In this document: positions 1 through 14,850 of the stretch, in pieces | How positions within the stretch are numbered: the stretch's first letter is position 1 | Layout of the letters: every line of letters starts with the position of its first letter | Source of the DNA: Actinopolyspora lacussalsi subsp. righensis | Lineage (GTDB): Bacteria > Actinomycetota > Actinomycetes > Mycobacteriales > Pseudonocardiaceae | Length of the DNA: 64,000 bases | Direction: 5' to 3' | Assembly: GCF_900116555.1 (NCBI RefSeq) | Contig: NZ_FPAT01000004.1 | Coordinates: 186,001-250,000, forward strand | Made by a program: the position numbers and the translations under genes | Notes under the pieces: generated by a model | Databases searched by the model: none | The model's input: the letters and a program-made list of their open reading frames with translations, nothing else | What the model was told of the DNA's origin: nothing

Positions 1-1186
1 ATCGCAGCGTCCGGACGTTCGACACGATCCGCTCAGAACGGTACCGCTTGCCGACCCGCAGCGCTTCCAAGCCGAGTTTGGCGGCTTCGTCCTGATGAGC
101 TGCCCGTGCCAGTAGTAACGCATGCTCGACCTTCGCGAGCGCCTGGGGCTTGGGAGCCGCCATCGACGGAACGACGGCAGCGTAGACACTTCTCGCCGCC
201 GAGACGTCACCGAATTTCGCCAGCGCACTGGACTGATAGCGAGCCACCTTCGCCGCCGTGAAAGCGAACACCCACGGCCATCGGGCCTCGCCGGCATGTC
301 GATCAGCGAGGCGTTCCGCGGTGGTGAGCGCTCCGGTCATCGCCGCTCGATCTCGTAGCGCGCCGAAGGCGACCGCACGCAAGGATGCGAGCCATGCTCG
401 GGCGGCGACCGGGCTACTGTTGTCGAGCTGACGAGCCGCCTTGTCGAGCAGTCGCACACCCTGGTGCGGGTCACCGATCTCGACGGCGAAGTGTCCGAGG
501 CTCCCAATCATGTAGGACACCAACAGGGGATTCCTGGCTGACTCGGCGAATCGGATGCTCTCCTGGTACCGCGCACGCGCGAGGACTGTATCGCCTCGGT
601 CAGCCGCGAGCCACGCTGAGAAACCAGCGACCTCGCTCAGAGCGGCGAATCCACGAGCATCATGCAGCTTGTCCCGAACGACCTGCTTCACCAACCGCAG
701 ATGCCCTTCAACGGCGGGTGCGAGATGCCGCGAAGAGACCGACGCTTCCATGCGCCGATAAGACTCGGTCGGTGCGGATATCGACGCGACGAGCCCGTCG
801 CTCGTGTCCGCCGCCGCACCCGTACCGCGAGTTCGTGCCAGCGCTACGCCGACACCAAGCCCGAGGGTCGTTCCGAGGTAGGTCCTTCTGTCCACGTTCT
901 CAGTGGTACACCCGTTGCCACTTCGCCTGAACCCGAGTTCGAGGTCTGAGTCGGCATTCAGGATGTGCCGTAGTGCTTGCCGATAGCGAGCGGCAGGCCA
1001 ACGGATGACGCCGCGCTCCCACTTGCCGATGTGGTTGGCGTCGACCTCGGTGATCTTCTCCGTCAGCCGGTAGGTCTGGGCGTTCACGGCTTCGGCCAGT
1101 TCCTGGCGGGTCATCGGCTGACCTGGTGATGACGGCGACCCAAGACGTTGTCGTGCAACGCGTAGGGCTTCGTTGGGCTCCGGCAC
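1..1186 (-). CDS. XRE-family regulator with TPR-like C-terminus (partial)
   Basis: The gene reads leftwards from a GTG at 1186 (AGAGGAG just upstream) and runs off the window, so only about 395 codons are visible and the C-terminus is missing. The N-terminus holds the actinomycete HTH signature (MTRQELAEAVN, then VDANHIGKWERGVIRWP), matching the Streptomyces type of XRE regulator with a helical TPR-like domain. The remainder is Ala-rich helical repeats, as expected for such sensors. It diverges from the Cys-rich protein and radical SAM-CYTH gene, so it probably controls them across the 170-bp shared promoter gap. The ligand is unknown. Confidence 0.85.
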   Translation of the reverse strand, partial: MPEPNEALRVARQRLGSPSSPGQPMTRQELAEAVNAQTYRLTEKITEVDANHIGKWERGVIRWPAARYRQALRHILNADSDLELGFRRSGNGCTTENVDRRTYLGTTLGLGVGVALARTRGTGAAADTSDGLVASISAPTESYRRMEASVSSRHLAPAVEGHLRLVKQVVRDKLHDARGFAALSEVAGFSAWLAADRGDTVLARARYQESIRFAESARNPLLVSYMIGSLGHFAVEIGDPHQGVRLLDKAARQLDNSSPVAARAWLASLRAVAFGALRDRAAMTGALTTAERLADRHAGEARWPWVFAFTAAKVARYQSSALAKFGDVSAARSVYAAVVPSMAAPKPQALAKVEHALLLARAAHQDEAAKLGLEALRVGKRYRSERIVSNVRTLR

Positions 1187-1356
1187 ACCTGCTCCTCTGA
1201 TCAGTCCGTTTCTGACAGTAACTGACCGAATACAAGCGGAGAAATTCAACTCTCCCAGAACTCTCCCCTTGCGCTCCCAACTTCGCTCCCTCCCGTCCCG
1301 GGGCGCGACGACGGAGGCTCGTCGTGTCACTGCCAAAACGGTGGAGAGGTCGGACC
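1187..1356. promoter_or_regulatory. divergent promoter region
   Basis: This 170-bp gap separates the leftward XRE gene from the rightward Cys-rich protein. It is lower in GC than its flanks (for example TTTCTGACAGTAACTGACC near 1208) and carries a direct repeat of the type AACTCTCCC around 1249-1266. A divergent promoter with an XRE operator is the likely content; I cannot define the -35/-10 boxes. Confidence 0.4.
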
Positions 1357-1806
1357 ATGCGGACACCCGTATCGATCGCGCTGCCCGCCGCGACCGCGAA
1401 CGTGCGAGCGACCCGTGCAGTAGCGAAACGTCCGTTCGTACGCGAGCAGCGGGCTCCGCGCCGAACGCGGCGCACTACGAGACTCTTCTGGGGGCGACAC
1501 ACCGAAGCGTATCCGGGGTTCACGTACGAACACCCGCACACAGCGCCATCACACGAACGCCGCTGGCGGACCACGCCTCCGAAGGCTCGGACCGAGGACG
1601 GTGCACGCGTCTACGCGGTGGGCCTGCGAGGAGAGTTCGTTCGGCACGAAGTGCCTGAGCGCCCGGTGACGCAGCTCTATGAGGGCCGCGAAGTGGTCAT
1701 CGCCGAGTGCGGCTGCCTCGCCTTCCTGTTGTTCGGTGTTCCTCCCGGCCGTTACGAGCGCTGTCCCAGCTGCCCAATTGATCAGGAGACGTTGCCGCAC
1801 CGGTAA
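1357..1806 (+). CDS. hypothetical protein with C-terminal Cys pairs
   Basis: A 149-residue protein of unknown function. The ATG at 1357 was chosen over one at 1324 because GGAGAGG lies about 10 nt before it. The first third is Arg/Ala-rich. The C-terminal half reads as structured protein and contains ECGC and CPSC about 20 residues apart, a pattern compatible with a small zinc-binding ribbon. It ends 68 bp before the radical SAM-CYTH gene on the same strand and is likely co-transcribed with it. The zinc-site reading is an inference from cysteine spacing only. Confidence 0.6.
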   Translation: MRTPVSIALPAATANVRATRAVAKRPFVREQRAPRRTRRTTRLFWGRHTEAYPGFTYEHPHTAPSHERRWRTTPPKARTEDGARVYAVGLRGEFVRHEVPERPVTQLYEGREVVIAECGCLAFLLFGVPPGRYERCPSCPIDQETLPHR

Positions 1807-1874
1807 CACCGAAGTCGGACCTACTCGACCTGCTCCGCTCCGCCCCACGGGCTGTAATCAACACAGGAGATCGA

Positions 1875-3566
1875 ATGATGTCGGATCTTGCCGCGAACGT
1901 TCCGACCTATGTGAACAAGGATGCGACCTTGCGAATCAAAGTTGTGGACGCGTGCGGGATGACATGCACGTTTTGCCACAACGAGGGCACGCCAGTGGTG
2001 GCTGACAATCGGCGCCGAGCGTCGGGGGAGTTCGTCACCGCGGGCAAGTCGGGGCGTGTGTCCATCTACGCGGCGAGTAACGGGGCGAATTTCTTGCCCA
2101 CGACAGTTGAACCGAATAAGGAATACCAACGTGCGCTTCGTGCGCTGCGTGGACTCGGACTGAGCGAGTTGCACATCACGGGAGGCGAACCCACCCTGCA
2201 CCCCCGGTTGGCAGAGGTCGTGCGCCTCGCTCGCGACGCCGGGTATCGAGTGCGCATGACCTCGAACGGCGAGAACGGCGCCGAGGTGCTCGGGGCGTGC
2301 GCTCGCGCTGGGCTCGATCACGTGAACTTCTCGGTGTTCGGCACCACGGCGACCGAACTCGCTCGAGTACAGAGCACGCGGTTTCAGGACACTGCGCGGG
2401 CCGAGAAGAAGATCGAGGCACTGCGTGCTTCCATCGCGGCTTGCGAACGACACGGCATCGGAGCACGGGCGAACATCGTCGTGCTCGACCACACGCACGT
2501 CGAACGGGTCCACCTGTTGCTCGACGAGTACTCATCGGCGATCTCGGTACGCCTGTTGAACAGCCTCGACCACGGGACGGCCTCCGTCGACGCGATCGAG
2601 CGCGTCCTCACCGAGCGAGGCGCGGTCGCCGTAGCGGACCACGTAACGGCGGGCGTCTCCGGTGCACGGACCGAGTACCGCATGGCTGACGGTCGGCACA
2701 TCTCGTTCAAGCGGCTGCGTCCCACACGCTTGCCGGACACGTGCGCCGGGTGCCGGTTCAACAACGGCACCGACTGCCAGGAGGGCTTCTACGGCCTGCG
2801 CCTGTACCGAGCTCGCGATGGCCGGTGGATGGTCGGCGTCTGCATCCAACGGATGGACCTGTGCCAACCTCTCGACGAGTTCCTGTCGGGGCAGCTCGCC
2901 AGCGAGGTCGTACGGTTCCGCGAAGCGGAGTACGCCCGGCTCGCTCGGCACGCTACTTCCCCGACTCAGCACGCGCCGCACTCCTCACAGCAACGAAGGG
3001 ATCATCACGTCATGGCGATCGAGCACGAGGCGAAAGTACTGGAGATCGATCCGGACGAGTTCGAACACCGCGTCGTCGCACTCGGCGGACGCAGGATCGA
3101 CAAGGCATGGCAACGCCGCTACGTCTACGACATCGTCACGGGAGATCAATCGCGGTGGGTTCGCCTGCGAGACACGGGTGGCGAGACCACGCTCACGATC
3201 AAGGAGATCGCCGACGACGGCATAAGCGGCACCACCGAAACCGAGGTCGCGGTCTCGGACTTCGAGACGACCAACGTCCTGCTCGACAAGCTGGGTTACC
3301 GCCCGAAGGCGTACCAGGAGAATACGCGGGTACGGTTCGAGCTCGACGGCGCCGAGGTCACCATCGACGCATGGCCGCACATACCGCCGTATGCCGAGAT
3401 CGAGGCCGACAGCACATCGGCGGTGCTCGCGGTCGCCGACCGGCTCGGGTACGCCGAGCAAGATCTCACCGGCGAGAACACGACCAAGATCTATGCCCGG
3501 TACGGCATCGACCTCGGTTCGATCAGCCACCTGGCGTTCACTGCGGACGCCAACGTGAACCGGTAA
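1875..3566 (+). CDS. MoaA-like radical SAM protein fused to a CYTH domain
   Basis: 563 residues from an ATG preceded by AGGAG. Residues 20-340 form a radical SAM domain: the cluster motif C27xxxC31xxC34 (ACGMTCTFC), the SAM motif GGEP at 103-106, and a C-terminal cysteine set (C290, C293, C301, C323, C330) resembling the auxiliary-cluster region of MoaA/SPASM enzymes. Residues about 380-560 form a CYTH triphosphate-tunnel domain opening with the diagnostic ExExK motif (E383, E385, K387), as in class IV adenylate cyclases and triphosphatases. An in-frame ATG at 3012 with GAAGGGA upstream could also give a free CYTH protein. MoaA acts on GTP and CYTH enzymes on triphosphates, so a nucleotide-type substrate is plausible but unproven. 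Confidence 0.8.
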   Translation: MMSDLAANVPTYVNKDATLRIKVVDACGMTCTFCHNEGTPVVADNRRRASGEFVTAGKSGRVSIYAASNGANFLPTTVEPNKEYQRALRALRGLGLSELHITGGEPTLHPRLAEVVRLARDAGYRVRMTSNGENGAEVLGACARAGLDHVNFSVFGTTATELARVQSTRFQDTARAEKKIEALRASIAACERHGIGARANIVVLDHTHVERVHLLLDEYSSAISVRLLNSLDHGTASVDAIERVLTERGAVAVADHVTAGVSGARTEYRMADGRHISFKRLRPTRLPDTCAGCRFNNGTDCQEGFYGLRLYRARDGRWMVGVCIQRMDLCQPLDEFLSGQLASEVVRFREAEYARLARHATSPTQHAPHSSQQRRDHHVMAIEHEAKVLEIDPDEFEHRVVALGGRRIDKAWQRRYVYDIVTGDQSRWVRLRDTGGETTLTIKEIADDGISGTTETEVAVSDFETTNVLLDKLGYRPKAYQENTRVRFELDGAEVTIDAWPHIPPYAEIEADSTSAVLAVADRLGYAEQDLTGENTTKIYARYGIDLGSISHLAFTADANVNR

Positions 3567-3653
3567 GGCAACTTCGAGTGCACGAGCGACGTGCCCTTCC
3601 CTTCGCGGAGTGTCCAGAACTCGTCGCTTTGAACAAACGAGCGGAGGAGGACT

Positions 3654-3708
3654 GAACGAAGTGGTTCTCACAGCGCGCTCACGCCGTTAGAATCCCAGCG
3701 CAGTGAGT
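3654..3708 (+). promoter_or_regulatory. CRISPR leader 1
   Basis: A 55-nt AT-richer block directly before the first repeat. Its core (GAAGTGGTTCTCACAGCG, then AATCCCAGCG and AGTGAGT) recurs at the same distance before the three other arrays. It fixes the direction of array growth and transcription as rightward. Confidence 0.85.
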
Positions 3709-3798
3709 GTAGGCCCCGCGCACGCGGGGATGGACCCAGCGTGTCGATCTCGCTGACACGCCGCAGCAGCGTAGGCCCCGCGCACGCGGGGATGGACT
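3709..3798 (+). CRISPR. CRISPR array 1 (2 repeats, 1 spacer)
   Basis: Two 28-nt repeats start at 3709 and 3771. The repeat is built on the palindrome CCCCGCGCACGCGGGG followed by ATGGACC, the type I-E repeat pattern of actinobacteria. The single spacer is 34 nt, one longer than the 33 nt of the other arrays, and the second repeat has a changed last base, as expected for a leader-distal terminal repeat. Confidence 0.9.
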
Positions 3799-4115
3799 CC
3801 TCGACGCCCGTAGAGGAGGGATTCCTGCCCCCGTCGCGCACGGCACCTTGCCCTCGGTTGCGCCGCTCAGGAGTTCACCGATGGCAGTGTCGCAGAGCGT
3901 GCGAGCAACGGCGGCCCATTCGATCGGCTGCGCGAGCGAACCGCCGGGTTCCGTACGGCCGACGAGGCCCACACCCGGTGGGGCGCCACCTGGAACAGTC
4001 CGCCTCCGCACCGCGACTACGCTTCGCGCTCGGCCATACCGCCGAGGTGCCATTCCCGATTTTTTGGATTATTCTCGGGATCGAAAGGTGTTGGTTCGGC
4101 TGTGGGAGGTGTGCC
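3799..4115. other. gap between array 1 and antitoxin-like gene
   Basis: I see no supported gene here. A leftward reading frame (about 3800-4053) has some protein-like composition but no convincing start or family and may be a remnant. Just before 4100 lies an AT-rich patch (TTTTTTGGATTATTCTC, about 4071-4087) that probably contains the promoter of the gene at 4116. Confidence 0.4.
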
Positions 4116-4568
4116 GTGACCACGACCAAACAGCGTGAGCGCGACGAGCTCTTCGACCAGTTCCAGCGGGTCGAGGAGCTCGAGGAGGTCGCCGAACAGG
4201 CCTCGGCGCAGCTGGACCCCACCCAGCTCGAACGCTTGCGCTCCGTGGCACGACGCACGCTCGCGGGCATCAAGCCGGTTCGTGTCTCCCTGGCCAGTGA
4301 GCTGCTCGACCTCGACGAGAAAACGATCAGGAGTTGGACCGAGGAAGGTGTGCTCACCGAGGCCGACACGGCCAGCACCCGGCGACTGCTGGACCCCGAA
4401 CGGCTGCACGAGGTGCTGCACATCGTGCGCGAGTTGCGCGCCAACGGCAAACGAGCGGATCTGCTCGACGCGGTGTGGTGGAAGCTCAGCGACCAGGCCG
4501 TCCTCGACCGGGAGGACCTGGCCGACAGCCTGGCGGAGATGCGTCGCGGCGACGCGCACAAAGTATGA
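4116..4568 (+). CDS. HTH protein, probable antitoxin
   Basis: 150 residues from a GTG with GGGAGGT 6 nt upstream. The N-terminal half is acidic and helical (about residues 5-30, coiled-coil-like). The middle carries a helix-turn-helix-like stretch (ASELLDLDEKTIRSWTEEGV) similar in style to MerR/excisionase DNA-binding helices, and the C-terminus is helical. It lies 45 bp upstream of a frameshifted toxin-like gene, in the antitoxin-first order typical of type II toxin-antitoxin pairs. Antitoxin function is inferred from order and the DNA-binding fold; I do not recognise a named family. Confidence 0.6.
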   Translation: MTTTKQRERDELFDQFQRVEELEEVAEQASAQLDPTQLERLRSVARRTLAGIKPVRVSLASELLDLDEKTIRSWTEEGVLTEADTASTRRLLDPERLHEVLHIVRELRANGKRADLLDAVWWKLSDQAVLDREDLADSLAEMRRGDAHKV

Positions 4569-4613
4569 CCGACAGTTATCAATTACTACCGGTGGTGTTG
4601 AGATCATCACCGC

Positions 4614-5049
4614 GTGACCGTTGACGTCGAAATCACCAGCATTGCTCAGCAGCGGCGAAAGGTGCTTCGCAACAAACACGCGAAACACTTCGAGCAGTGG
4701 TTGGAGGAGCTCAAACGGGACGGTTGCCGTGCGCTCCAGTACCGCTTGACCGGCGATCTCGTCGAACGAGTCTGCGTACGACACCTCACCGGCCCGCTGC
4801 GCGTGATCGTCGCGTTCCACAACGCCGAACACGCCACCATCGTTCTCAATCGGTCCCCACGACGACAGCGACCCCGGCATCGACGTCTACCGGCACCTGT
4901 ACTCCCTGGCCGGGATCGAAACCCCGTCCGCGCGGACGCGGACGAAACCACCCTGCTGCGACGAAGAAGGGCACCCACCCTCGGACGACGAGGAGATCAT
5001 CGACCTGGTCCAGCGGGCCCAACGTCTACGACGTCGACGCACAAGCTGA
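4614..5049 (+). pseudogene. frameshifted toxin-like gene
   Basis: The frame opening with GTG at 4614 encodes a basic HigB/RelE-like start (QQRRKVLRNKHAKHFEQWL, then LTGPLRVIVAFHNAEHATIV). It loses protein character at about 4848. Stepping one base (CTC A ATC GGT) at 4848 restores a plausible continuation, HDDSDPGIDVYRHLYSLAG and DDEEIIDLVQRAQRLRRRR, ending at TGA 5047-5049. The joined product would be about 144 residues, in the size range of this toxin type. The frame change suggests an inactivated toxin beside an intact antitoxin, although a sequencing error would look the same. Confidence 0.6.
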
Positions 5050-5086
5050 TCCCTCGAAGTGGCACATCGGAGGAGGGTCTCCGCTC

Positions 5087-5503
5087 ATGCTGTTCGTGCC
5101 CGTCGCTCGCCCACGCATGCGCGGGGTGGCCCCCGACTGGCAACGGATGTGGTCAGAGGATGTGGAACGGCGTGGCTCGGCGGATCACGGTTCGGAGAAA
5201 CCGCCCTCCCTCGCTGGCCGGGCACTGCCTGCCGACGATAAGTCCGAAGAATGCGTCGATGACGGACACAACGCAGACGAACCAACCAACGACCAGCTGC
5301 ACGGGCACGTACGGATGGCTCACTCCAGCCAAGGGAAGAGCCGAGGCCGTGCTAGACGAGCGATGTGCCGTCCCTGTCGCGGAGCGCCAGTGAGCTCTTC
5401 CTCACCACCACTGAGAGACTCCGGGAGACAGTGGTGTCCCTCGTCCAGCGCTACGATTCAATCCTGCACATCAATCCACAATGGTCATGCGATGACTTGG
5501 TGA
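5087..5503 (+). CDS. doubtful hypothetical ORF
   Basis: A 138-codon frame from ATG 5087 with GGAGGAGGG about 10 nt upstream. The product begins MLFVPVARPRMRGVAPDWQ and becomes low-complexity and Ser/Arg-rich. I recognise no family. The rest of the 5050-5583 gap holds no better gene. It may be a decayed coding region attached to the neighbouring toxin-like pseudogene. Confidence 0.25.
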   Translation: MLFVPVARPRMRGVAPDWQRMWSEDVERRGSADHGSEKPPSLAGRALPADDKSEECVDDGHNADEPTNDQLHGHVRMAHSSQGKSRGRARRAMCRPCRGAPVSSSSPPLRDSGRQWCPSSSATIQSCTSIHNGHAMTW

Positions 5504-5524
5504 GCACCCCCGCTTCGGGGTGCT
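5503..5524. terminator. GC-rich hairpin before array 2 leader
   Basis: AGCACCCC and GGGGTGCT form an 8-bp perfect stem around CGCTTC. It lies 60 bp before the leader of array 2 and could insulate the array from upstream transcription. Confidence 0.55.
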
Positions 5525-5583
5525 GGAACAAGCCCGGAAACACACGATCGTGCTTCGTCACCACGAACATGGGCAGGAGGACA

Positions 5584-5638
5584 GAACGAAGTGGTTCTCA
5601 CAGCGCATTCGCACCGCTAGAATCCCAGCGCAGTGAGT
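5584..5638 (+). promoter_or_regulatory. CRISPR leader 2
   Basis: Same 55-nt leader as at 3654, with GAAGTGGTTCTCACAGCG and AATCCCAGCG in identical spacing to the first repeat. It is almost identical to leader 1 (AGGAGGAC also precedes both). Confidence 0.85.
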
Positions 5639-6276
5639 GTAGGCCCCGCGCACGCGGGGATGGACCCCGAGCGCGCCGAACTCGGCCAACTCGGGCGGCG
5701 TAGGCCCCGCGCACGCGGGGATGGACCCTAATAACGTCCGCACCCTGGATCTCCTTACCAGTAGGCCCCGCGCACGCGGGGATGGACCGTCGTGCAGACC
5801 ATAGAGCCACTGGCACGTGTCGTAGGCCCCGCGCACGCGGGGATGGACCTGGGCTAATGAGGCTGGATATCTCACTGGAGGGGTAGGCCCCGCGCACGCG
5901 GGGATGGACCCGCCTGCCTGTAGCAGGTCCGCAGCCAGGACAGGTAGGCCCCGCGCACGCGGGGATGGACCTCGATGCGGCCACAGGTGGCGGCGTCTCC
6001 GGCAGTAGGCCCCGCGCACGCGGGGATGGACCCCGCGAACGGCCCGTCATGGTCGATGTCGTGGCGTAGGCCCCGCGCACGCGGGGATGGACCGTCCGCC
6101 CCGGTCGAATCGAACTCGTCGCAGGGGTAGGCCCCGCGCACGCGGGGATAGACCCAGCACCAGCCCCAGCGCCGGGTCGGCTCCGTAGTAGGCCCCGCGC
6201 ACGCGGGGATAGACCCAGTAGGAACACTGTTTGCGACAGAAACCCGAGGTAGGCCCCGCACGCGCGGGGATGAACC
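5639..6276 (+). CRISPR. CRISPR array 2 (11 repeats, 10 spacers)
   Basis: Repeats of 28 nt start at 5639, 5700, 5761, 5822, 5883, 5944, 6005, 6066, 6127, 6188 and 6249 with an exact 61-nt period, so all ten spacers are 33 nt. The first eight repeats are identical. The repeats at 6127 and 6188 share a change (GGGATAGACC), and the last one at 6249 is scrambled in the palindrome and ends GATGAACC. Decay at the leader-distal end agrees with the leader being on the left. Confidence 0.97.
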
Positions 6277-6366
6277 TGTCGCCCCTGCCGCAGCCGCTTG
6301 ACCACGAACCCCACCGTCGCCGTCGGCGCTCACCGCGAATCCGGGGCGAAGAAGACCGGCAGCCGG

Positions 6367-7593
6367 TCAGTCGGGCAGCACCTCGCGCATGACCCGGATT
6401 GTGTTGCCGCCCATGATCGCGGCGATGTCGGCCTCGGAATGCCCCCGTTCACGCAGTTCCCGCGTGATCACCGCGATGTCGCTGGTGTCCCAGCCGACCG
6501 TCGTCGACCCGTCGTAGTCGCTGCCCAGCGCGGCCGTCTCGATGCCGCCGACGTCGATGACGTGCTCGATGGCGTCGACGACTGCGGCGGGAGTGGTGTC
6601 GCAGACGGCGGCGTCCCAGTAGCCGATGCCGACGACTCCGCCGGTACGCGCCACGCCGCGGATCTCCTCGTCGGTCAGGTTGCGGTTGACATCGCAGGTG
6701 GCCTGCACACCGCCGTGGCTGTACACCACCGGTTTCGTGGCACGGTCGAGCATCTCGGCCACCGCGCGGTGACTGGAATGTGCGATGTCGACGATGACCC
6801 CCCGCTGCTCCAGCTCGTCGAACACCCGGCGGCCCAGGTCGGTGAGTCCGCCCTTGTCGATACCGTGCATCGAGCCGACGACCTCGTTGTCGAAGAAGTG
6901 GGCGAAGCTCGCCATCCGCATGCCGGCGTCGAACAGCACCTCGACGTTGCCCTGCTCGCCCTCGAGGTTGTGCAGCCCCTCCACGGAGAAGAGCGCGCCG
7001 GTGACCCGCTCACCGGCTTCACGGGCGGCGACCAGCTCGTCGAGGTCGGCTCGGGTGCGGATCCGCACCAGGCGACCGTCGGAACGCGCGGCCGCGTCGC
7101 TGAGCTTCTCGGCGTGGTAGAGCGACCGTTCGAGCAGCGAGGTCCACGTCGCCGGTGGCTGCAGCTGGGCGATGGACAGCAGTGTGATGTTGTCGGTGTC
7201 GGCGGAGTTGGATTCGTAGTTCTGGCCCCTCGGGGACTTCGACACCGACGAGAACACCTGGAGGCCCACGTTGCCCTCCTCGAGCCGAGGCAGGTCGACG
7301 TGCCCTCGGTCGGAGCGCTCGAGCGGGTCACGGTCCCACATCAGCGTGTCGGCGTGCATGTCCACGATCGGCAGCGAGTCGTGCAGCTCCCGCGTGGACG
7401 CGTCGACCGAGGGAAGGCGGGTGTCGACGACCTGGTTCATGCGGCGCTCGACGATCCCGGGCGCGAACACGAAGAACGCGATCACCGCGAGCACCACGAA
7501 GAACGAGCCAGCACTGACGGTCCACCGCAGCCACCCGCGCTTGATCCGAGCCACGAACGCGAACCGTAGCGCTTTCACCGATCCGTGGTCCAT
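6367..7593 (-). CDS. membrane dipeptidase (peptidase family M19)
   Basis: 408 residues if started at ATG 7593; a GTG at 7578 is an alternative. An N-terminal transmembrane anchor (WLRWTVSAGSFFVVLAVIAF) precedes a renal-dipeptidase-type catalytic domain. Visible metal-site motifs are DMHADTLMW (HxD), VEGLHNLEGE, IVDIAHSSH, VVYSHGG and LGSDYDG. The family hydrolyses dipeptides, often with a D-residue, using a binuclear zinc site; here the enzyme would sit on the outer face of the membrane. It stands alone between array 2 and the Rrf2 gene. Its ATG lies inside a CRISPR-repeat-like palindrome. Confidence 0.9.
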   Translation of the reverse strand: MDHGSVKALRFAFVARIKRGWLRWTVSAGSFFVVLAVIAFFVFAPGIVERRMNQVVDTRLPSVDASTRELHDSLPIVDMHADTLMWDRDPLERSDRGHVDLPRLEEGNVGLQVFSSVSKSPRGQNYESNSADTDNITLLSIAQLQPPATWTSLLERSLYHAEKLSDAAARSDGRLVRIRTRADLDELVAAREAGERVTGALFSVEGLHNLEGEQGNVEVLFDAGMRMASFAHFFDNEVVGSMHGIDKGGLTDLGRRVFDELEQRGVIVDIAHSSHRAVAEMLDRATKPVVYSHGGVQATCDVNRNLTDEEIRGVARTGGVVGIGYWDAAVCDTTPAAVVDAIEHVIDVGGIETAALGSDYDGSTTVGWDTSDIAVITRELRERGHSEADIAAIMGGNTIRVMREVLPD

Positions 7594-7616
7594 CCCCGCG
7601 CACGCTGGGATCGGCC
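7587..7616. repeat. solitary CRISPR-repeat-like palindrome
   Basis: The sequence CATCCCCGCGCACGCTGGGA lies here, matching the repeat core CCCCGCGCACGCGGGGAT at all but one base. About 20 of 28 positions agree with the array repeat. It overlaps the dipeptidase start and has no leader or second repeat. It may be a stray repeat or a chance GC palindrome. Confidence 0.5.
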
Positions 7617-7750
7617 CGGCTCGGCTGTGCACTGGTGACCAGGAATGACACCTCCGAAGCAGCGACGGGCCGGGCGATGCTCTCGACCGTGGCCGGGGCA
7701 CACCCGGCCCGACCAAGGGCTGCCCTCCGTGGGACTTGCCGCATGCCGTT

Positions 7751-7767
7751 GTAACGATTAGTGTTAC
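7751..7767. promoter_or_regulatory. GTAAC-N7-GTTAC operator (Rrf2 gene)
   Basis: GTAACGATTAGTGTTAC, an inverted repeat 33 bp before the Rrf2-type start. The same GTAAC-N7-GTTAC arrangement occurs before the adjacent SDR gene at 8294. This is most likely the binding site of the Rrf2 regulator itself. Confidence 0.75.
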
Positions 7768-7799
7768 GACTAGGATCGAGCGGAGAGGTGGAGACCGAC

Positions 7800-8231
7800 G
7801 TGAGCGCCAACAGCAGACTGACCGTCGCGGCGCACGCCCTGACCTGGATCGGGCTGTATCAGCGGCGCGGTCATGAGGTCGCCACCTCCGAGCAGATCGC
7901 GACGAGCGTCAACACCAACCCGGTGGTGATCCGCCGCCTGCTGGCCGAGCTGCGCAAGGCGGGCCTGGCCGACTCACAACGGGGAGCGGGGGCGGGCTGG
8001 ATGCTCGTGCGGGACCTGGAGACGATCACCCTGCTCGACGTCTACCAGGCGATCGATCCAGGACCGATCTTCGCCTTGCACCGCGCGACACCGAACCCCG
8101 AGTGCGTCGTGGGAAACGGCATCGGGCCCGCGATGACCGCCGTGTACGACGAGGTGGAGGCCGCCTTGCGCGGGGAGTTGGCCAAGACCACGTTGGAGGA
8201 CGTACTGCGGGACGTCTTGAAAGCCGCCTGA
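7800..8231 (+). CDS. Rrf2-family transcriptional regulator
   Basis: 143 residues from GTG 7800, with GGAGAGGTGGAG upstream. The N-terminal winged helix is typical of Rrf2 proteins (SRLTVAAHALTWIGLY, then TSEQIATSVNTNPVVIRRLL and AGAGWMLVRDLETITLLDVY). Only one cysteine (NPEC) is present, so it lacks the three-Cys cluster site of IscR/NsrR and resembles the YwnA group. The shared operator upstream of itself and of the SDR gene makes it a likely autoregulated repressor of the SDR/SnoaL module. Confidence 0.9.
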   Translation: MSANSRLTVAAHALTWIGLYQRRGHEVATSEQIATSVNTNPVVIRRLLAELRKAGLADSQRGAGAGWMLVRDLETITLLDVYQAIDPGPIFALHRATPNPECVVGNGIGPAMTAVYDEVEAALRGELAKTTLEDVLRDVLKAA

Positions 8232-8293
8232 CCTCGGGCTGTTGACCTTCCCCCTTCGAGGGAAATAGCGGCCCGCGAACATCGGCCATCGAT

Positions 8294-8310
8294 GTAACAA
8301 AAATTGTTAC
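8294..8310. promoter_or_regulatory. GTAAC-N7-GTTAC operator (SDR gene)
   Basis: GTAACAAAAATTGTTAC, flanked by T and A to give a 6-bp perfect inverted repeat, lies 22 bp before the SDR start. It matches the site at 7751 in half-site sequence and spacing. Confidence 0.8.
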
Positions 8311-8332
8311 AGCAAGGAATCGGAGAAATCCC

Positions 8333-9085
8333 ATGGGACAGCTGGACGACAAGAGCGCCCTCGTCACCGGCGCATCCAGCGGCATCGGGCTGGCGATCGC
8401 CCGCCGTTTCGCTGCCGAGGGCGCGACGGTCTACCTCACCGGCCGCCGCGAGGCCGAGCTGGACGCCGCCGTCGCGCGGGTCGGCGCCCGAGGCGTCGCC
8501 GTCCAGAGCGACGCCTCGGACCACGGCGACCTCGACCGGCTCTTCGCCGAGATCGCGAACCGCAGCGGCCGACTGGACATCGTGGTGGCCAACGCCGGGG
8601 TCGGGGAATACGGTCCGCTCGGCACGATCACCGAGCAGGAGTACGACCGCACGACCTCGATCAATCTCAAGGGCACGGTCTTCATCGTCCAGAAAGCACT
8701 GCCGCTGCTGACGACAGGCGCCTCGGTGATGCTGGTCTCCTCCAGCGCGGCCCTGCGGGCCGCCCCGGGCCTGGGCGTCTACGCCGCCACCAAGGCCGCG
8801 ATCCGCGGCCTCGCCCGCACCTGGGCCGCCGAGCTCGCGGACCGCGGAATCCGCGTCAACACCCTCACCCCCGGCGATGTCGAGACCCCGGGCGGGGACG
8901 AACTGCGCGCCGCTTTCCCGCACGGCGATCAGCCCACCGCGGCCGAGCCCGCCACGTTCAGCCCGCTCGGCCGGATCGGCCGTCCCGAGGAGGTCGCCGC
9001 CACCGCGCTCTACCTGGCCGGAGACCAGAGCAGCTTCACCACCGGTGCGGAACTGCTCGTCGACGGCGGCGCCACACAGCTCTAG
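8333..9085 (+). CDS. SDR-family oxidoreductase
   Basis: 250 residues, the usual length of a classical short-chain dehydrogenase. The cofactor loop TGASSGIG is at 13-20, NAG follows near residue 87, and the catalytic Ser/Tyr/Lys set is visible as SSSAALRAAPGLGVYAATK. The C-terminus (GAELLVDGGATQL) is standard. The start has GGAGA upstream. It follows the Rrf2 gene in the same direction and has its own copy of the operator, so it is probably induced when the repressor senses its signal. The substrate cannot be read from sequence. Confidence 0.92.
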   Translation: MGQLDDKSALVTGASSGIGLAIARRFAAEGATVYLTGRREAELDAAVARVGARGVAVQSDASDHGDLDRLFAEIANRSGRLDIVVANAGVGEYGPLGTITEQEYDRTTSINLKGTVFIVQKALPLLTTGASVMLVSSSAALRAAPGLGVYAATKAAIRGLARTWAAELADRGIRVNTLTPGDVETPGGDELRAAFPHGDQPTAAEPATFSPLGRIGRPEEVAATALYLAGDQSSFTTGAELLVDGGATQL

Positions 9086-9208
9086 GCACCGATCGGCGAT
9101 GCGGGACGACCGTGCTCGGCGGATCGCTGAGCGGCAAGCACTTCCTGTTCCAGGGCCGCGGCCCGACCGACACACCACACGCGAACGACAGGACGAAGGA
9201 CGAGGACG

Positions 9209-9625
9209 ATGGCAACGGATACGCAGACCTCGCGAACCGTGGCGGAGAAGTTCGTGGAGCGCCTCGGCAGGCAGGACCCGGAAGGCGTCCAGGAACTGTT
9301 CGCCGCGAAGATCGACTGGTACGTCCCCGGCAGTGACGCGCTGCCCTGGACCGGACGCCGTACCAGCCGGGAGGAGGTCGCGCCGTACTTCACCACGATG
9401 TGGCCGCACTTCGAGCCCGGCAGGAGCGAGGTCGCGCTGGATCGCGTCATCGTCGACGGTGGTGACGTGATGCTGCTGGCGGTCTTCACGCACACCGTCG
9501 TGTCCACCGGCAAGGAGTTCACCACACCGGTGGCCATGCACCTGGTGGTCGAGGACGGCCGGATCGTCCGCATGCACCTGCACGAGGACACGCTGACCGT
9601 CGACAAGGCGTTCACCGCTGACTGA
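9209..9625 (+). CDS. SnoaL-like / NTF2-fold protein
   Basis: 138 residues with the pattern of the nuclear transport factor 2 superfamily: an N-terminal helix pair (VAEKFVERLGRQDPEGVQEL), IDWYVPG, then strands ending in a typical HLVVEDGRIVRMHLHEDT. Such proteins are small isomerase or hydratase-like enzymes or ligand-binding barrels, often placed beside oxidoreductases. It is 123 bp downstream of the SDR gene and probably belongs to the same regulated unit. A hairpin at 9690 follows. Confidence 0.85.
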   Translation: MATDTQTSRTVAEKFVERLGRQDPEGVQELFAAKIDWYVPGSDALPWTGRRTSREEVAPYFTTMWPHFEPGRSEVALDRVIVDGGDVMLLAVFTHTVVSTGKEFTTPVAMHLVVEDGRIVRMHLHEDTLTVDKAFTAD

Positions 9626-9689
9626 GCGGAGAGGACTCGGGCACTCCGTGGCACGGGGCGGCCCGGCCGGGCGGCACTCCCACGAGAAA

Positions 9690-9716
9690 GCGCCTCCGGA
9701 GCGCATCCGGAGGCGC
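9690..9716. terminator. bidirectional terminator hairpin
   Basis: GCGCCTCCGGA pairs perfectly with TCCGGAGGCGC across a 5-nt loop, between the convergent SnoaL and DUF397 genes. The same hairpin is found beside the second DUF397 gene at 12689. Confidence 0.85.
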
Positions 9717-9735
9717 TGGACCTCTCGCCGCTGAA

Positions 9736-9927
9736 TCAGCCGAACTTCTCGGCCTTCACCGCGTCGATGAACGCCGACCACTGCGGACCGGTAGTGGTGA
9801 AGTAACCAGCCGCGCGATCCTTCGTGTCACGCACCGCAGCACCATCCGCGCCACGACCGACCTCGACGCAGTTGCTAACTCGGCCAGAACGGCTCGATTT
9901 CCGCCAGTTCGTAGGGTGCAGCTTCAT
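9736..9927 (-). CDS. DUF397 protein (copy 1, orphan)
   Basis: 63 residues with the full DUF397 pattern: WRKSSRSG, CVEVG, AAVRDTKD, and SAFIDAVKAEKFG at the end. DUF397 proteins usually sit directly downstream of an XRE/DUF5753 regulator and form a partner pair. Here no XRE gene precedes it. It is closely similar to the DUF397 gene at 12736, including the 3' hairpin, so it looks like a duplicate that lost its regulator. Confidence 0.9.
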   Translation of the reverse strand: MKLHPTNWRKSSRSGRVSNCVEVGRGADGAAVRDTKDRAAGYFTTTGPQWSAFIDAVKAEKFG

Positions 9928-10196
9928 CGCTTACCTCCCGGTATCCCGCCAACCCGGCCATGAACTCAACGGGCCACCCGGCCCTCACTTCACGAAAGGT
10001 AGCGCACCCATCGCTTTTCCGTGACTATCCACACCGCCATGCCCCTGAAGACAGCCAAAACCGCGACAGCGTTCCAACCGCACAACAGTCCACAAAGGTT
10101 ATAACCTGACCCGAAGCGCAGCACGTTCCGAGATATTCCGCAGCAGCCCGACTGCACACGACCGAGCTTCCTCACTACGAACCCCAAGAGAGGCCA

Positions 10197-10251
10197 GAAC
10201 GAAGTGGTTCTCACAGCGCTTTCCCGCCGTTAAAATCCCAGCGTAGTGAGT
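10197..10251 (+). promoter_or_regulatory. CRISPR leader 3
   Basis: The leader core GAAGTGGTTCTCACAGCG again stands at the same spacing before the first repeat. It has two to three substitutions relative to the other leaders (TTAAAATCCCAGCGTAGTG). Confidence 0.85.
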
Positions 10252-10828
10252 GTAGGCCCCGCGCACGCGGGGATGGACCGGCCGGTGGATCACGCTGTGA
10301 CCCACCTGATCAGTAGGCCCCGCGCACGCGGGGATGGACCCTCATCCGGGGTGGACGAGGCTGTGACCTGCCCGTAGGCCCCGCGCACGCGGGGATGGAC
10401 CACGAGTTAGCGTCAAGCCCGTTTGGCATAGTGGGTAGGCCCCGCGCACGCGGGGATGGACCGCGCCGGGAGGCGGCCAACGATCGGTGGAAGCGGTAGG
10501 CCCCGCGCACGCGGGGATGGACCAGCCTGCCGCTCGCGGTGCTGGTGTCGACCGGTGTAGGCCCCGCGCACGCGGGGATGGACCCCAGGACATCCGGTGC
10601 CGGGTGGCCGCCCCGTCGTAGGCCCCGCGCACGCGGGGATGGACCGAAGAGGTGACCCGTGGACATCGCGAAAGGCCCGTAGGCCCCGCGCACGCGGGGA
10701 TGGACCCATGCGGGCGGCGGTCTCCAGCCGCTGCGGGTCGTAGGCCCCGCGCACGCGGGGATGGACCATGTCTGGTGTTCAGACGGGAATGATGCTCACC
10801 GTAGGCCCCGCGCACGCGGGGATGAATC
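10252..10828 (+). CRISPR. CRISPR array 3 (10 repeats, 9 spacers)
   Basis: 28-nt repeats start at 10252, 10313, 10374, 10435, 10496, 10557, 10618, 10679, 10740 and 10801 with a strict 61-nt period and 33-nt spacers. All repeats are identical except the last, whose 3' end is altered to GATGAATC. Orientation is as in array 2. Confidence 0.97.
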
Positions 10829-10989
10829 GAAGGAACGGCCCACGGCAGGTATCGAAGATGCCCCCGAGCAGAGAGCTCGCTCATGAGTCGAGGCATCCGG
10901 CGAAGCCCTCGCGCTGCGGCAAGCCAGGAGGTGTTCTCGGAAAGCGACGCGAACAGCCGAAGAACCCCGCGACTAATCCATAGCTCACC

Positions 10990-11751
10990 ATGAGCGCGCT
11001 GGAGGAAGTCGGGCAGTCACTGGCGACCACCATCACGAAAGCCACCGAAGCCCAGAAAGCGATCGTCGCGGCCGGAAACACCTGGAACGAACGCGGCCAG
11101 AAACTAACCGAACACCTCTCCGGCACCAACAACGCGGACGCCCAGCACCTCCTGGACCAGCACGAGACCACCGCCGAGGACACGCGGGAAGCATGGCGCA
11201 AAATCACACTGGCCCTCCGCGCCATCCAGCGGTACCGCACCAGCATCGAAGGGGAGCCGACAAGCGAACTCGGCGCTGCCCCGGGGGCGTCCGCCCCGCG
11301 CACTGGCATCAGCAATGCCACCGCGCCGGACGGCTCCGAGTATCCACCCGAGGCAGCGTGGGTGGCGGACACGCTGCCTCGTCGGGTTCGCCCCGGAGAC
11401 AAGACTGTGGGGTACGCGAACGGCTCGTTCACCGATCGGTTCGTCTCCGGTGTCGATCACGTGTGGACACCGCACATTCAGGAGCGCGCTCGCGGTCTGG
11501 GTATGAGCCGGTGGGTGATCAAAGCTCTGAGCAGCCACGTTGAGATGAAGGTGGCGAGCATGATGATTCAGCGAGGTCAGCGGAACGCAGAGGTGGTGAT
11601 CAACAACGTGCCGTGCGGATCTCGGGCGGACCAGCCGCCCGGCTGTGCACAAGCGTTGGAAAGATTCCTGCCCGGGGAAAGCACACTGACGGTCCACGGC
11701 ACCACCGAGGCCGGAGAACCATTCACGCAACGGTACGAGGGACGAGCATGA
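10990..11751 (+). CDS. SCP1.201/DddA-like deaminase toxin
   Basis: 253 residues; a stop codon lies just upstream of the ATG. Residues 1-85 are helical (a coiled N-terminal domain, as in secreted actinobacterial toxins), about 86-125 a Pro/Ala-rich linker, and about 128-253 a deaminase of the SCP1.201 family. The key residues are visible: KTVGY near 138, the catalytic zinc motif HVE at 183-185, VVINN at 202-206, and the zinc cysteines C209 and C219, followed by FLPGESTLTV. Family members deaminate cytosine in nucleic acid, DddA in double-stranded DNA. An overlapping Imm1 gene follows. No signal peptide is seen; export could rely on a type VII-like route. Confidence 0.85.
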   Translation: MSALEEVGQSLATTITKATEAQKAIVAAGNTWNERGQKLTEHLSGTNNADAQHLLDQHETTAEDTREAWRKITLALRAIQRYRTSIEGEPTSELGAAPGASAPRTGISNATAPDGSEYPPEAAWVADTLPRRVRPGDKTVGYANGSFTDRFVSGVDHVWTPHIQERARGLGMSRWVIKALSSHVEMKVASMMIQRGQRNAEVVINNVPCGSRADQPPGCAQALERFLPGESTLTVHGTTEAGEPFTQRYEGRA

Positions 11752-12167
11752 CGAACGCGCTCACCGAGGCTCAGCAGCGGGTCAACGCCTTCGGCGTGGT
11801 GCTGTCCGCCGAGCACGACCCGGACGAGCTGATCCGTGGGATCACGGAGTGGGAAAGCACGATCGAGGGCGACGATCCGGAGTTCGGTCTGGTGTGGTTC
11901 TTCATGCACAGCGCCGAGGAAGGCGCGCGAACGCTCACTGTCGGCCTGCGCCGAACGACCGGAGCCCTGGCGTGGTTCGAGGACGACGCTTTCCTGGTGC
12001 CCACCGACGGCACCAACGACGAGCACGTGGATTACTTCTCCACGGAAGGACACCACTTCCCGATGGATTCCCGCACGGAGATACCACGTGAGAAGGCGCT
12101 GGCAGCGCTACGCGAGTTCGTCCAGCACGACGCGCTGCCCAACGGCATCGAGTGGGTCGAGCAGTGA
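11748..12167 (+). CDS. Imm1-family immunity protein
   Basis: 139 acidic residues starting in an ATGA overlap with the deaminase gene, so the two are translationally coupled. The pattern matches Imm1 proteins: a helical start (EAQQRVNAFGVVLSAEHD), then GALAWFEDDAFLVP, YFSTEGHHFPMDS, and IPREKALAALREFV. Imm1 members neutralise cognate deaminase toxins of the SCP1.201 type. The acidic charge suits binding a basic nucleic-acid-active domain. Confidence 0.85.
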   Translation: MTNALTEAQQRVNAFGVVLSAEHDPDELIRGITEWESTIEGDDPEFGLVWFFMHSAEEGARTLTVGLRRTTGALAWFEDDAFLVPTDGTNDEHVDYFSTEGHHFPMDSRTEIPREKALAALREFVQHDALPNGIEWVEQ

Positions 12168-12359
12168 CGGATTGAGCGATCCCGCGCCGGTTACGAGTGA
12201 CGTCGTGGTGATCCCCGTCGAGCGCCACGAATCCGGCACGGCGACACAATCCACGATGTCCGCAGGATGACTCGGTAAGCGACCTCGCTTCGAGCAGCGT
12301 GCCGAAGCGCCCCCACGACACGAGACCGAGCTCCGTCGCCACGAACGGCCAGAAAGGAC

Positions 12360-12414
12360 ACACGAAGTGGTTCTCACAGCGCGTTCAAGCCGCTAGAATC
12401 CCAGCGCAGTGAGT
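12360..12414 (+). promoter_or_regulatory. CRISPR leader 4
   Basis: Fourth copy of the leader core (GAAGTGGTTCTCACAGCG, TAGAATCCCAGCGCAGTGAG) at the identical distance from the first repeat. Only the upstream edge differs (CACACGAAG). Confidence 0.85.
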
Positions 12415-12625
12415 GTAGGCCCCGCGCACGCGGGGATGGACCGGCTGATGGTTCGAAGGAAACGTGGCCCGAAACGTAGGCCCCGCGCACGCGGGGATGG
12501 ACCACGCATTACCGGGGTAGCACGCAAGAGTGTTATGTAGGCCCCGCGCACGGGGGGATGGACCCACCAGCCCGGTCACCAGTAGGGCGCGGGTCATGTA
12601 GGCCCCGCGCACGCGGGGATTGGCC
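12415..12625 (+). CRISPR. CRISPR array 4 (4 repeats, 3 spacers)
   Basis: Repeats start at 12415, 12476, 12537 and 12598 with a 61-nt period and 33-nt spacers. The third repeat has a C-to-G change inside the palindrome (CACGGGGGGAT) and the fourth ends ATTGGCC. The decay lies at the leader-distal end. Confidence 0.95.
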
Positions 12626-12688
12626 GCCCGCATAAGCCCGCGAGCGCACCTCCACGCCGAGGTGAGCAGGCCGAACTCGCACGAAAAA

Positions 12689-12715
12689 GCGCCTCCGGAA
12701 CGACTCCGGAGGCGC
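12689..12715. terminator. terminator hairpin (duplicate)
   Basis: GCGCCTCCGGA and TCCGGAGGCGC form an 11-bp perfect stem around ACGAC. Stem and position relative to the DUF397 stop match the hairpin at 9690. Confidence 0.8.
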
Positions 12716-12735
12716 TGGACTTCACACTGCGGAAA

Positions 12736-12927
12736 TCAGTCGAACTTCTCGGCCTTCACCGCGTCAATGAACGCCGACCACTGGGCATCAGTCGTAGTGA
12801 AGTACCCGGCCGAGCGATCCTTGGTGTCACGCACCGCCGCGCCGTCGTTGAAGCGGCCGACCTCGACACAGCTCGTCCGCTGATGCGAACGGCTGGACTT
12901 GCGCCAGCCTTCAGGATGTACCGTCAT
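12736..12927 (-). CDS. DUF397 protein (copy 2, XRE-paired)
   Basis: 63 residues, same length and layout as the copy at 9736 (WRKSSRSH, CVEVG, AAVRDTKD, SAFIDAVKAEKFD). The ATG at 12927 was preferred because GGAGG lies 9 nt before it. The start overlaps the end of the XRE gene by 17 bp, the standard coupled XRE-DUF397 arrangement. Confidence 0.92.
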   Translation of the reverse strand: MTVHPEGWRKSSRSHQRTSCVEVGRFNDGAAVRDTKDRSAGYFTTTDAQWSAFIDAVKAEKFD

Positions 12928-13777
12928 TGCTGTCATCCTCCATTTCGTCTGCACGGCTGGCGATGAACTCCACGGAGGCATCGGGGCTCATCGTCACCTC
13001 GTGCAGATTAGTAACCGCTTCCTGGTATGCGTGAGCGGTGCCCGGAGTGTGCAACGACACCGACGAGTGGTACTGCTCCATGTGCACGATCGGCGTAGCC
13101 TTCGGGAATTCGAACAGGATGAATGAGCCCATGTGCGCCGGGTGCCACATTGTCGCGCCGCTGCGCAGGATACGAATCTCGATGTTGTCCGACTCGGCCA
13201 TGTGTACCAGGTGGCGCAGCTGCTCAGTCATCACTTCACGTCCACCGATCGGATCATCGAGTACGGATTCCGTGATGATCGGCACGAAGTGCGGAGCGTT
13301 TCGGGTGGTGAGGATTTCACGCCGTCCGATACGCATGAGGACGCGCTGCTCACGCTCGTCGACGGACAGCATTCGCATGATGGAGCGTGCGTAGTCCGAG
13401 GTCTGCAGAAGTCCGGGGATCACTCCGGTGGCGACATCGGTGATACGACTGGCGCTGCGCTCGAACTCGATAAGCGTGGTGAGTTCTTTACGCGGGCCGG
13501 ATCTGCCGGTGGACAACCAATCGGGCTTGTCCGCGTCCCGCGCCATGTCGACTACGCGCTCCCGTTCTGACGCGGATACCCCGAGAGCTCCGAGGTAGGC
13601 GGCGACCAGTTCCGGACTCGGCACCGTGGCACCGGTTTCGTACCTCTGGATTTTGACGTGGTTGGTTTCGAGTTCACGTGCCACGGCTCGCAGAGTGAAA
13701 CCCGCGTTCTCCCGAATTTCTCGCAGTTCAGCGCCAAGGGCACGGGCCTTCGGCGTCCCGCCACTGTTACCTGCCAT
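12911..13777 (-). CDS. XRE regulator with DUF5753 domain
   Basis: 288 residues. Residues 12-70 are an XRE helix-turn-helix (ALGAELREIRENAGFTLRAV, then HVKIQRYETGATVPSPELV). Residues about 95-275 match DUF5753 (VATGVIPGLLQTSDYARSIM, TESVLDDPIGG, SFILFEFP, and a HAYQEAVTNL segment near the end). These proteins regulate a neighbouring DUF397 partner and are related to BldB/AbaA-type small regulators in actinomycetes. It diverges from the small-protein operon at 13911, with palindromic operator candidates on both sides of the gap. Confidence 0.93.
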   Translation of the reverse strand: MAGNSGGTPKARALGAELREIRENAGFTLRAVARELETNHVKIQRYETGATVPSPELVAAYLGALGVSASERERVVDMARDADKPDWLSTGRSGPRKELTTLIEFERSASRITDVATGVIPGLLQTSDYARSIMRMLSVDEREQRVLMRIGRREILTTRNAPHFVPIITESVLDDPIGGREVMTEQLRHLVHMAESDNIEIRILRSGATMWHPAHMGSFILFEFPKATPIVHMEQYHSSVSLHTPGTAHAYQEAVTNLHEVTMSPDASVEFIASRADEMEDDSNDGTS

Positions 13778-13782
13778 GTAAC
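13766..13782. promoter_or_regulatory. GTTAC-N7-GTAAC palindrome over XRE start
   Basis: GTTACCTGCCATGTAAC spans the XRE start codon (13775-13777). An autoregulatory operator is plausible; half-sites resemble the palindrome at 13863. Confidence 0.5.
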
Positions 13783-13862
13783 AACAGTATCCATGACGAG
13801 TGAATATGCACCATCACCTGTTTAGGGTATTGCCCACCTTGGACAAATAACTCATCTTGGTA

Positions 13863-13885
13863 CAAGTAACAAGGTTGGTTACTTG
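13863..13885. promoter_or_regulatory. 8-bp inverted repeat, probable XRE operator
   Basis: CAAGTAAC and GTTACTTG are a perfect 8-bp inverted repeat separated by 7 nt, 26 bp before the ATG at 13911. Position and symmetry suit repression of the small-protein operon by the XRE regulator. Confidence 0.65.
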
Positions 13886-13910
13886 CTCCGTCATGAAATG
13901 AGGAACGGTC

Positions 13911-14129
13911 ATGCCACACACCTACGATGTATCGCACCCGGGCATACGGCTGCGGTGCAGGGACGAGTCCGGCTCGTCGTCGCTACGGATCTGGCGGTCA
14001 CAGTGGACGCCGAGAGTGATCCGGATCGACACGCCGACCGTTTACAACCGAACCGAGTGGACGGTCGAGCAGGCGAAGCTGCTGCGGGACGTGCTCGACG
14101 ACGCGATCCGGGCGGGCGAGCGGTCATGA
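13911..14129 (+). CDS. small hypothetical protein 1
   Basis: 72 residues; GAGG precedes the ATG. Family unknown. The C-terminal helix (EWTVEQAKLLRDVLDDAIRA) resembles the helix in the proteins at 14126 and 14928 (TATQCRDTATVLDELAAAL and TARQCAETASALRHLSHEL), so the three appear to be diverged paralogues. It is the first gene of a tight operon and overlaps the next by ATGA. Confidence 0.65.
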   Translation: MPHTYDVSHPGIRLRCRDESGSSSLRIWRSQWTPRVIRIDTPTVYNRTEWTVEQAKLLRDVLDDAIRAGERS

Positions 14130-14651: not shown

Positions 14652-14850
14652 ACCACGGCCCGGCCTCGTGAGCCCCGACCTCCGGGCCGGACCGTCCGCC
14701 GCCCGGCCGGGCCGCTCCCCTTCCCCGTCCCGGCCGGGCGGTTCCCAACAGCGCGAGAACCGCGCGCCCCGACCACCGAAACGCCAACGATCCCCGGAAC
14801 GACACGACGATCTCCCGAGCCGACACAGCTACGCGGAAAGGACAACCGGA

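Follow-up and report, generated by a model that had tools for sequence, protein, structure and literature searches.

A Patchily Distributed Radical SAM–CYTH Cassette That May Make and Disarm a Modified Nucleotide

Introduction

Near the start of a 64,000-nucleotide stretch of the Actinopolyspora lacussalsi subsp. righensis genome (assembly GCF_900116555.1, contig NZ_FPAT01000004.1, positions 186,001 to 250,000; hereafter the window) lies a gene that joins a MoaA-like radical S-adenosylmethionine (SAM) domain to a CYTH, or triphosphate tunnel, domain. That gene is a local variant, produced by loss of a stop codon, of a cassette of two genes that is real and apparently undescribed. On the reading favored here, to which we give a probability of about 0.5, the cassette would make a modified nucleotide and then disarm it through its CYTH enzyme.

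Several described systems resemble parts of this cassette. AbmM, an albomycin radical SAM enzyme (PDB 8wm2), is the best solved relative of the radical SAM half by sequence and by Foldseek, and MoaA is the best by Z-score. The cassette enzyme and AbmM have the CHNEG cluster motif in common at 17-20% identity, but AbmM belongs to a larger gene cluster, unlike the cassette, and we know of no CYTH partner for it. MoaA, the GTP 3',8-cyclase, carries a second cluster motif, CX2CX13C, and a C-terminal Gly-Gly. The cassette enzyme contains CX3CX2C (51 aligned rows), which is general to the radical SAM superfamily; its C-terminal cysteines, at positions 290, 293, 301 and 323, are spaced differently from those of MoaA, and the separate radical SAM proteins of its relatives do not end in GG (judged by eye). 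Prokaryotic viperin (pVip) is the best match of the radical SAM half in PADLOC-DB 2.0.0, a weak one (E 1.8e-14). In NCBIfam the viperin cut-off is missed (NF038283, 39.4 against 180 bits), and the cassette enzyme differs from pVip in having extra C-terminal cysteines and a CYTH partner. Neither the CYTH half nor the regulator of the window matched PADLOC-DB 2.0.0 at E 1. CYTH enzymes such as CyaB and Saci_0718 share PF01928 and the charged residues with the cassette protein, which scores below the cyaB cut-off and is tied near-obligately to one radical SAM family.

The 4'-thiothymidine cassette thmABC of Photorhabdus, reported in several gammaproteobacteria, likewise is compact and couples a radical SAM enzyme to a nucleoside triphosphatase giving self-resistance (PMC12691670). 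As far as the available part of that account goes, thmABC has a nucleoside kinase and its triphosphatase is not termed CYTH; the likeness drawn here is one of description. A review of jumbo phages suggests, in the part available, that CYTH triphosphatases degrade unmodified nucleotides and so clean the nucleotide pool (PMC7824862), and the accessible portion of one phage gene table holds both radical SAM and CYTH terms, for genes about 11 kb apart. A description of the pair itself was not found in the open full-text literature, a search that left out most subscription journals and bioRxiv preprints, and this agrees with the original prediction, made from the letters of the window, that no characterized system with this combination is known. 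The same open literature gave nothing relevant on 8WM2, on Lentzea nucleoside clusters, or on viperin with CyaB.

The Fused Gene

Pfam matches to Radical_SAM (PF04055, residues 22-205, E 4.1e-14, above the cut-off) and CYTH (PF01928, residues 402-513, E 4.4e-8, 33.6 against a gathering score of 23.2) bear out the prediction of both domains in one open reading frame (ORF), and MoaA is the best NCBIfam neighbor of the radical SAM half, far below cut-off (TIGR02668, 70.9 against 325.25; TIGR02666, 62.9 against 284.05). For the CYTH half NCBIfam listed cyaB alone (TIGR00318, E 4e-8, 33.3 against 57.95), and Saci_0718, a named triphosphate tunnel metalloenzyme, is among the closest solved sequences. 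With these cut-offs missed, a plain MoaA, viperin or CyaB identity was rejected. Residues of catalytic type are conserved in both halves: C27, C31, C34, C290, C301 and C323 of the radical SAM domain (numbered from position 1875) are invariant over 51 aligned rows and C293 nearly so, and E4, E6, R36, R51, R53, K64, E76, E78, R106, D119, E129 and E131 of the CYTH domain are invariant in a 35-row alignment. An AlphaFold2 model of the fusion has a mean predicted local distance difference test (pLDDT) score of 84.2 and a predicted template modeling (pTM) score of 0.61, with a pLDDT of 86.0 for the radical SAM domain modeled separately. Among the 50 matches listed from a BFVD search with the fusion model, all of them CYTH, radical SAM or unrelated, none carries both names.

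Against Actinopolyspora xinjiangensis, the ratio of nonsynonymous to synonymous substitution rates (dN/dS) is 0.12 for the radical SAM domain, 0.07 for CYTH and 0.50 for the linker (28 codons); the linker is 54% identical and the flanking domains 90-94%. This poorly conserved linker fits the loss of a stop codon. The fusion frame is uninterrupted in three more genomes of the genus (88-99% identity) and open in Actinopolyspora alba and A. xinjiangensis, strains possibly already counted among those three; the window's radical SAM sequence is 99% identical to that of A. alba. A frame open in several genomes rules out the single-genome error that the original prediction had named as its own possible undoing, and a sequencing error was rejected since the fusion recurs in several genomes and clades.

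The source genome holds a second copy on another contig, where radical SAM and CYTH are two separate genes facing a regulator with an HTH_31 match and followed by a flavoprotein-family gene. The module is accessory, as G165, a genome classed in the same species, lacks any match to it at E 1e-12.

A Conserved Pair

Named relatives of the cassette, 80 loci in all, were drawn from a radical SAM profile search and had to contain two conserved peptide patterns; the set is incomplete, five further confirmed loci not having been kept in it. With the two loci of the source genome it forms an 82-locus set, whose home-made gene calls are approximate. CYTH adjoins the radical SAM gene in 76/80 named loci. 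In a Lentzea atacamensis locus (L094) the two lie 8.5 kb apart within one run of co-directional genes. Three loci have no CYTH nearby; two belong to Shimazuella genomes with two CYTH genes elsewhere, and the third to an Actinoallomurus genome (L110) without any CYTH at E 1e-10. One further exception among the 80 (L071) has its CYTH in two frames.

Most of these relatives are separate genes, and the fusion was therefore rejected as the key novelty. Nor can it be essential to the system, given that the paralogue in the same genome is also two genes. Fusions with intact halves occur in Actinopolyspora, one Nocardiopsis, Thermoactinomyces daqus and Nocardia higoensis, that is, in four clades as read from the tree, whose own count of three changes omits unlabeled rows. 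The Nocardiopsis and Nocardia fusions are single tips inside unfused clades, and one same-ORF row with a frameshifted radical SAM part (L104) was excluded from the tally. Gene order also varies: CYTH comes first in L101, L103, the phage contig L116 and 30/35 pairs of the Streptomyces-containing family. In 22 Streptomyces rows the CYTH sequences are deeply split from the others (branch 4.39; some branches are long and the placement is unsure), suggesting that either a swap of partners or strong divergence took place while the radical SAM family stayed paired with a CYTH.

What could bind two such enzymes so closely? Since they are neighbors in 76 of the 80 loci, in both orders and fused in four clades, consecutive steps on one triphosphorylated substrate, as first proposed for the window, remain the best reading.

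Distribution and Mobile Elements

The cassette is patchily spread. The radical SAM family was found in 2/396 genomes sampled across the phylum, the source genome included, and a fusion match (either half, E 1e-12) in 45/390 genomes of the window's family and 88/394 of a second family, that of genome G370, which near-identity to named loci places as the family of Streptomyces. Named hosts include Thermoactinomycetaceae and Saccharibacteria.

It is also borne by phages. Four IMG/VR contigs carry the radical SAM gene, and all four carry CYTH. In L117 the pair follows the tail and endolysin/amidase genes of a Thermoactinomyces prophage (this contig and L060, each of 24,676 bases, are very likely one); in L116 an integrase and an endolysin are close by, and in L119 (positions 1-17059 of a 122-kb viral contig) the neighbors include a phage RNA-binding family protein and a tail-fibre-like gene. 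In L119, too, a WhiB-like gene (identified by eye) lies directly 5' of the pair, and the RNA-binding family protein, of 554 amino acids (aa), lies 3' of it. A phage record collection gave no match to the cassette, and a plasmid collection gave two partial matches, one of them CYTH-only.

Preferential Retention of CYTH

The two genes are not lost evenly. Among 51 loci in the 390 genomes of the window's family, 24 have both genes in full (7-8 kb apart in G626 and G712), 20 have a full CYTH without a full radical SAM gene (13 with no radical SAM scored, 7 with a partial one), five have a partial CYTH alone and two have radical SAM fragments alone; none has a full radical SAM gene without CYTH. 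The 394 genomes of the second family gave 54 loci, with both genes in 37 (two, in G1070, confirmed on DNA), CYTH without a full radical SAM gene in 16, a radical SAM fragment in one and again no full radical SAM gene without CYTH; this count omits 39 CYTH-only rows, 31-41% identical, whose kinship is unclear. As the radical SAM gene is about twice the length of CYTH, a ratio of 2:1 is expected by chance, under which 0/36 has a probability of about 5e-7 if the loci are taken as independent, which they are not.

Orphan loci were read at 11 kb each (12 loci) or as stretches of 4-6 kb (12 further). Fourteen keep a piece of the radical SAM gene beside CYTH: nine are radical SAM-first and lack the 5' part (including L196-L200), and five are CYTH-first and lack the 3' part (L192-L195 and L201). 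The CYTH-proximal end of the radical SAM gene is retained in 13 of these 14, L200 keeping only inner residues 217-281. The last 43-97 radical SAM codons remain in L127-L130, 81-94% identical to intact genes; L202 has no radical SAM piece, and the CYTH of L198 is itself broken into two frames. The cut thus falls on the CYTH-distal side irrespective of gene order, more than a bias toward the promoter side could account for by itself. None of the 14 orphan CYTH genes read contains a stop, and seven comparisons between orphans give a dN/dS of 0.17-0.33. In the tree of CYTH sequences they require eight changes, at least five of them forced, against 13.3 for shuffled labels, which indicates repeated losses, yet with some orphans inherited.

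A gene that survives its partner, and not the reverse, is what is expected of immunity genes in toxin-immunity pairs and of resistance genes in producers, and both families show it. The pattern fits that of an immunity or resistance gene outliving its producer, as far as gene content and sequence can indicate. The Actinoallomurus locus noted above and L071, with its CYTH in two frames, are exceptions to it, and the orphan pattern would likewise suit a triphosphatase of general use.

A Proposed Mechanism and Its Alternatives

The make-and-disarm reading may be put together as follows. The MoaA-like radical SAM enzyme would abstract hydrogen from a nucleotide and so convert it to an unusual form that is probably toxic and most likely carries a 5'-triphosphate. 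CYTH would act as a triphosphate-tunnel hydrolase that takes phosphate off this product, as a finishing step, as self-protection, or as both. The divergent XRE-TPR regulator may silence the pair as long as a signal is absent, and in Actinopolyspora the loss of a stop codon would have merged the two enzymes into one protein. This reading is favored by the asymmetry of orphan CYTH genes together with a nucleoside-type gene cluster in Lentzea atacamensis (L094:10001-20815), bracketed by the radical SAM and CYTH genes and containing glycosyltransferases, two MFS proteins, an epimerase, PIG-L, DUF402, a cytidine deaminase and a HAD hydrolase; another genome of the window's family has a cluster that resembles it (L180, judged by eye). 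The near-obligate pairing, the kinship of the radical SAM half with AbmM and MoaA and the thmABC precedent speak for it too. The original prediction had left biosynthetic, signaling and defensive roles standing together. Making and disarming a nucleotide now leads, for what may be either an antibiotic or an anti-phage purpose.

A broader version is put forward with somewhat less than even confidence: a mobile conflict system in which the radical SAM product is a toxic nucleotide, acting in the cell or released, CYTH is the dedicated immunity enzyme, the carriers are phages, prophages and chromosomes, and many bacteria keep the orphan CYTH once the radical SAM gene has been cut away. If so, the cassette would define a class of toxin-immunity modules that act through a small molecule and rely on a CYTH enzyme for immunity, and a compact, easily cloned pair would give access to a novel modified nucleotide together with the hydrolase dedicated to it. 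Modified-nucleotide chemistry has yielded antiviral and antibacterial agents, and the clusters of Lentzea and its relative point to a metabolite worth seeking. The orphan pattern also offers a direct genetic test, namely whether the radical SAM gene is toxic without CYTH.

Two of the alternatives differ mainly in purpose. Anti-phage or inter-phage defense shares the favored mechanism, with a poisonous or chain-terminating nucleotide as with viperin, and CYTH protecting the cell or resetting the pool. Carriage on the viral contigs L116, L117 and L119, CYTH on every radical SAM-bearing viral contig, restriction-like genes within 3 kb of two loci, the pVip match in PADLOC and the CRISPR arrays flanking the window copy all lend it some appeal. 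This purpose is nevertheless doubtful, as the viperin cut-off is missed, CRISPR-like arrays lie near few loci, and antibiosis better fits the nucleoside-type cluster. A diffusible, competitive nucleoside antibiotic, with CYTH as finishing or immunity enzyme and orphan CYTH shielding non-producers, would draw on that bracketed cluster in L. atacamensis and its relative, on the orphan pattern and on the precedent of thmABC, as far as its description is available. It is a possible but unlikely purpose of the cassette, since most loci hold just the two enzymes; among the neighbor clusters listed there is no common glycosyltransferase, and an MFS cluster occurs in at least six loci, mostly several kb away.

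Signaling is an improbable role. Here CYTH, by its likeness to class IV adenylyl cyclases, would cyclize a radical SAM-modified nucleoside triphosphate (NTP), and XRE-TPR, or in Actinopolyspora possibly a SLOG protein, would read the messenger. The cyaB match, the frequency of XRE-TPR and the SLOG-like genes of three loci are in keeping with this; the cyaB cut-off is missed, though, Saci_0718 is among the closest solved structures, the SLOG matches are sub-threshold, and no intact XRE-TPR gene was found among the called genes of the orphan loci L127-L130. Remodeling of a phage or mobile-element nucleotide pool, with CYTH degrading unmodified NTPs and the radical SAM enzyme making the replacement, is very improbable despite the jumbo-phage proposal quoted above and the phage-borne pairs, as most copies sit in bacterial genomes and an orphan CYTH would deplete normal NTPs.

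The Regulator and Other Neighbors

The XRE-TPR regulator predicted opposite the fusion proved to be an NsdA-family TPR regulator (171.9 bits with NF053720, whose cut-off is 75), short of the NsdA equivalog (20.3 against 830). A Pfam search of the window regulator gave no match, leaving its helix-turn-helix domain unconfirmed. Its start was picked by eye, a GTG at 1186 behind an AGGAG motif, and the complete frame, read in the extract L005, extends just past the window edge. Before position 1 of the window a small protein (L005:7455-7928) overlaps the end of the XRE-TPR gene and has sub-threshold DprA and YspA-type SLOG matches; such a SLOG-like gene follows XRE-TPR in three Actinopolyspora loci only, with matches below the Pfam cut-offs.

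XRE-TPR is a frequent companion of the cassette, within 3 kb upstream in 49/82 loci, whereas the other five 3-kb bins have it in 0-2 loci apiece; the upstream bin is complete in 74/82, and XRE-TPR was not found there in 33/82. The same bin holds NUDIX genes in 18 loci, HAD in five, enolase-like in four and SLOG-like in three (0-2 elsewhere), and a HATPase gene occurs upstream in nine loci and downstream in nine. As the loci counted also supplied the companion profiles, the counts measure position, not discovery.

Table 1. Coordinates of the cassette and adjoining features in the window
Feature	Position	Strand	Remarks
NsdA-family TPR regulator (XRE-TPR type), divergent	1..1186	-	3' end 78 bp outside window
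Cys-rich ORF, 160 aa	1324..1806	+	open frame; probably outside module
Radical SAM–CYTH fusion protein, 563 aa	1875..3566	+	ORF without internal stop; PF04055 and PF01928
MoaA-like radical SAM domain	1899..2933	+	CX3CX2C, GGEPTLHP, conserved C-terminal Cys residues
Read-through linker	2934..3011	+	corresponds to intergenic DNA in most relatives
CYTH / triphosphate tunnel domain	3012..3563	+	ATG at 3012 corresponds to the start of separate CYTH genes
First downstream CRISPR repeats (2 repeats)	3709..3798	+	142 bp after ORF; neighbor, not part of module

A small cysteine-rich ORF does precede the fusion, as predicted, and it is open; its membership of the module fell away. In A. alba (L035) and L006, whose surroundings are otherwise 99% identical, it is lost through a deletion of some 455 bp, and a dN/dS of 0.40-0.87 in three comparisons indicates weak constraint, so it was rejected as a module partner. 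It has no Pfam or NCBIfam match and, among the relative loci compared, no homologue outside the genus.

Elsewhere single loci have further neighbors. A PglX/type IIG-like gene (L073:13457-17059, Streptomyces) and a type IV restriction-like gene (L069:4452-7547, Kribbella) each lie less than 3 kb from the cassette. In Saccharibacteria the pair stands beside P-loop kinase-like genes (L105:9131-9802, a sub-threshold AAA match, and L112:11623-12162, by eye), a possible kinase partner.

CRISPR repeats do begin just downstream of the fusion, as had been noted, and their link to the module is local. A simple exact-repeat scan found CRISPR-like arrays near 5/82 loci, three of them Actinopolyspora, and a role as CRISPR accessory was rejected. 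The same repeat recurs 11 times at 5639-6276, 10 times at 10252-10828 and four times at 12415-12625, with nine further repeats upstream of the window; in A. alba and A. xinjiangensis, too, additional copies surround the module.

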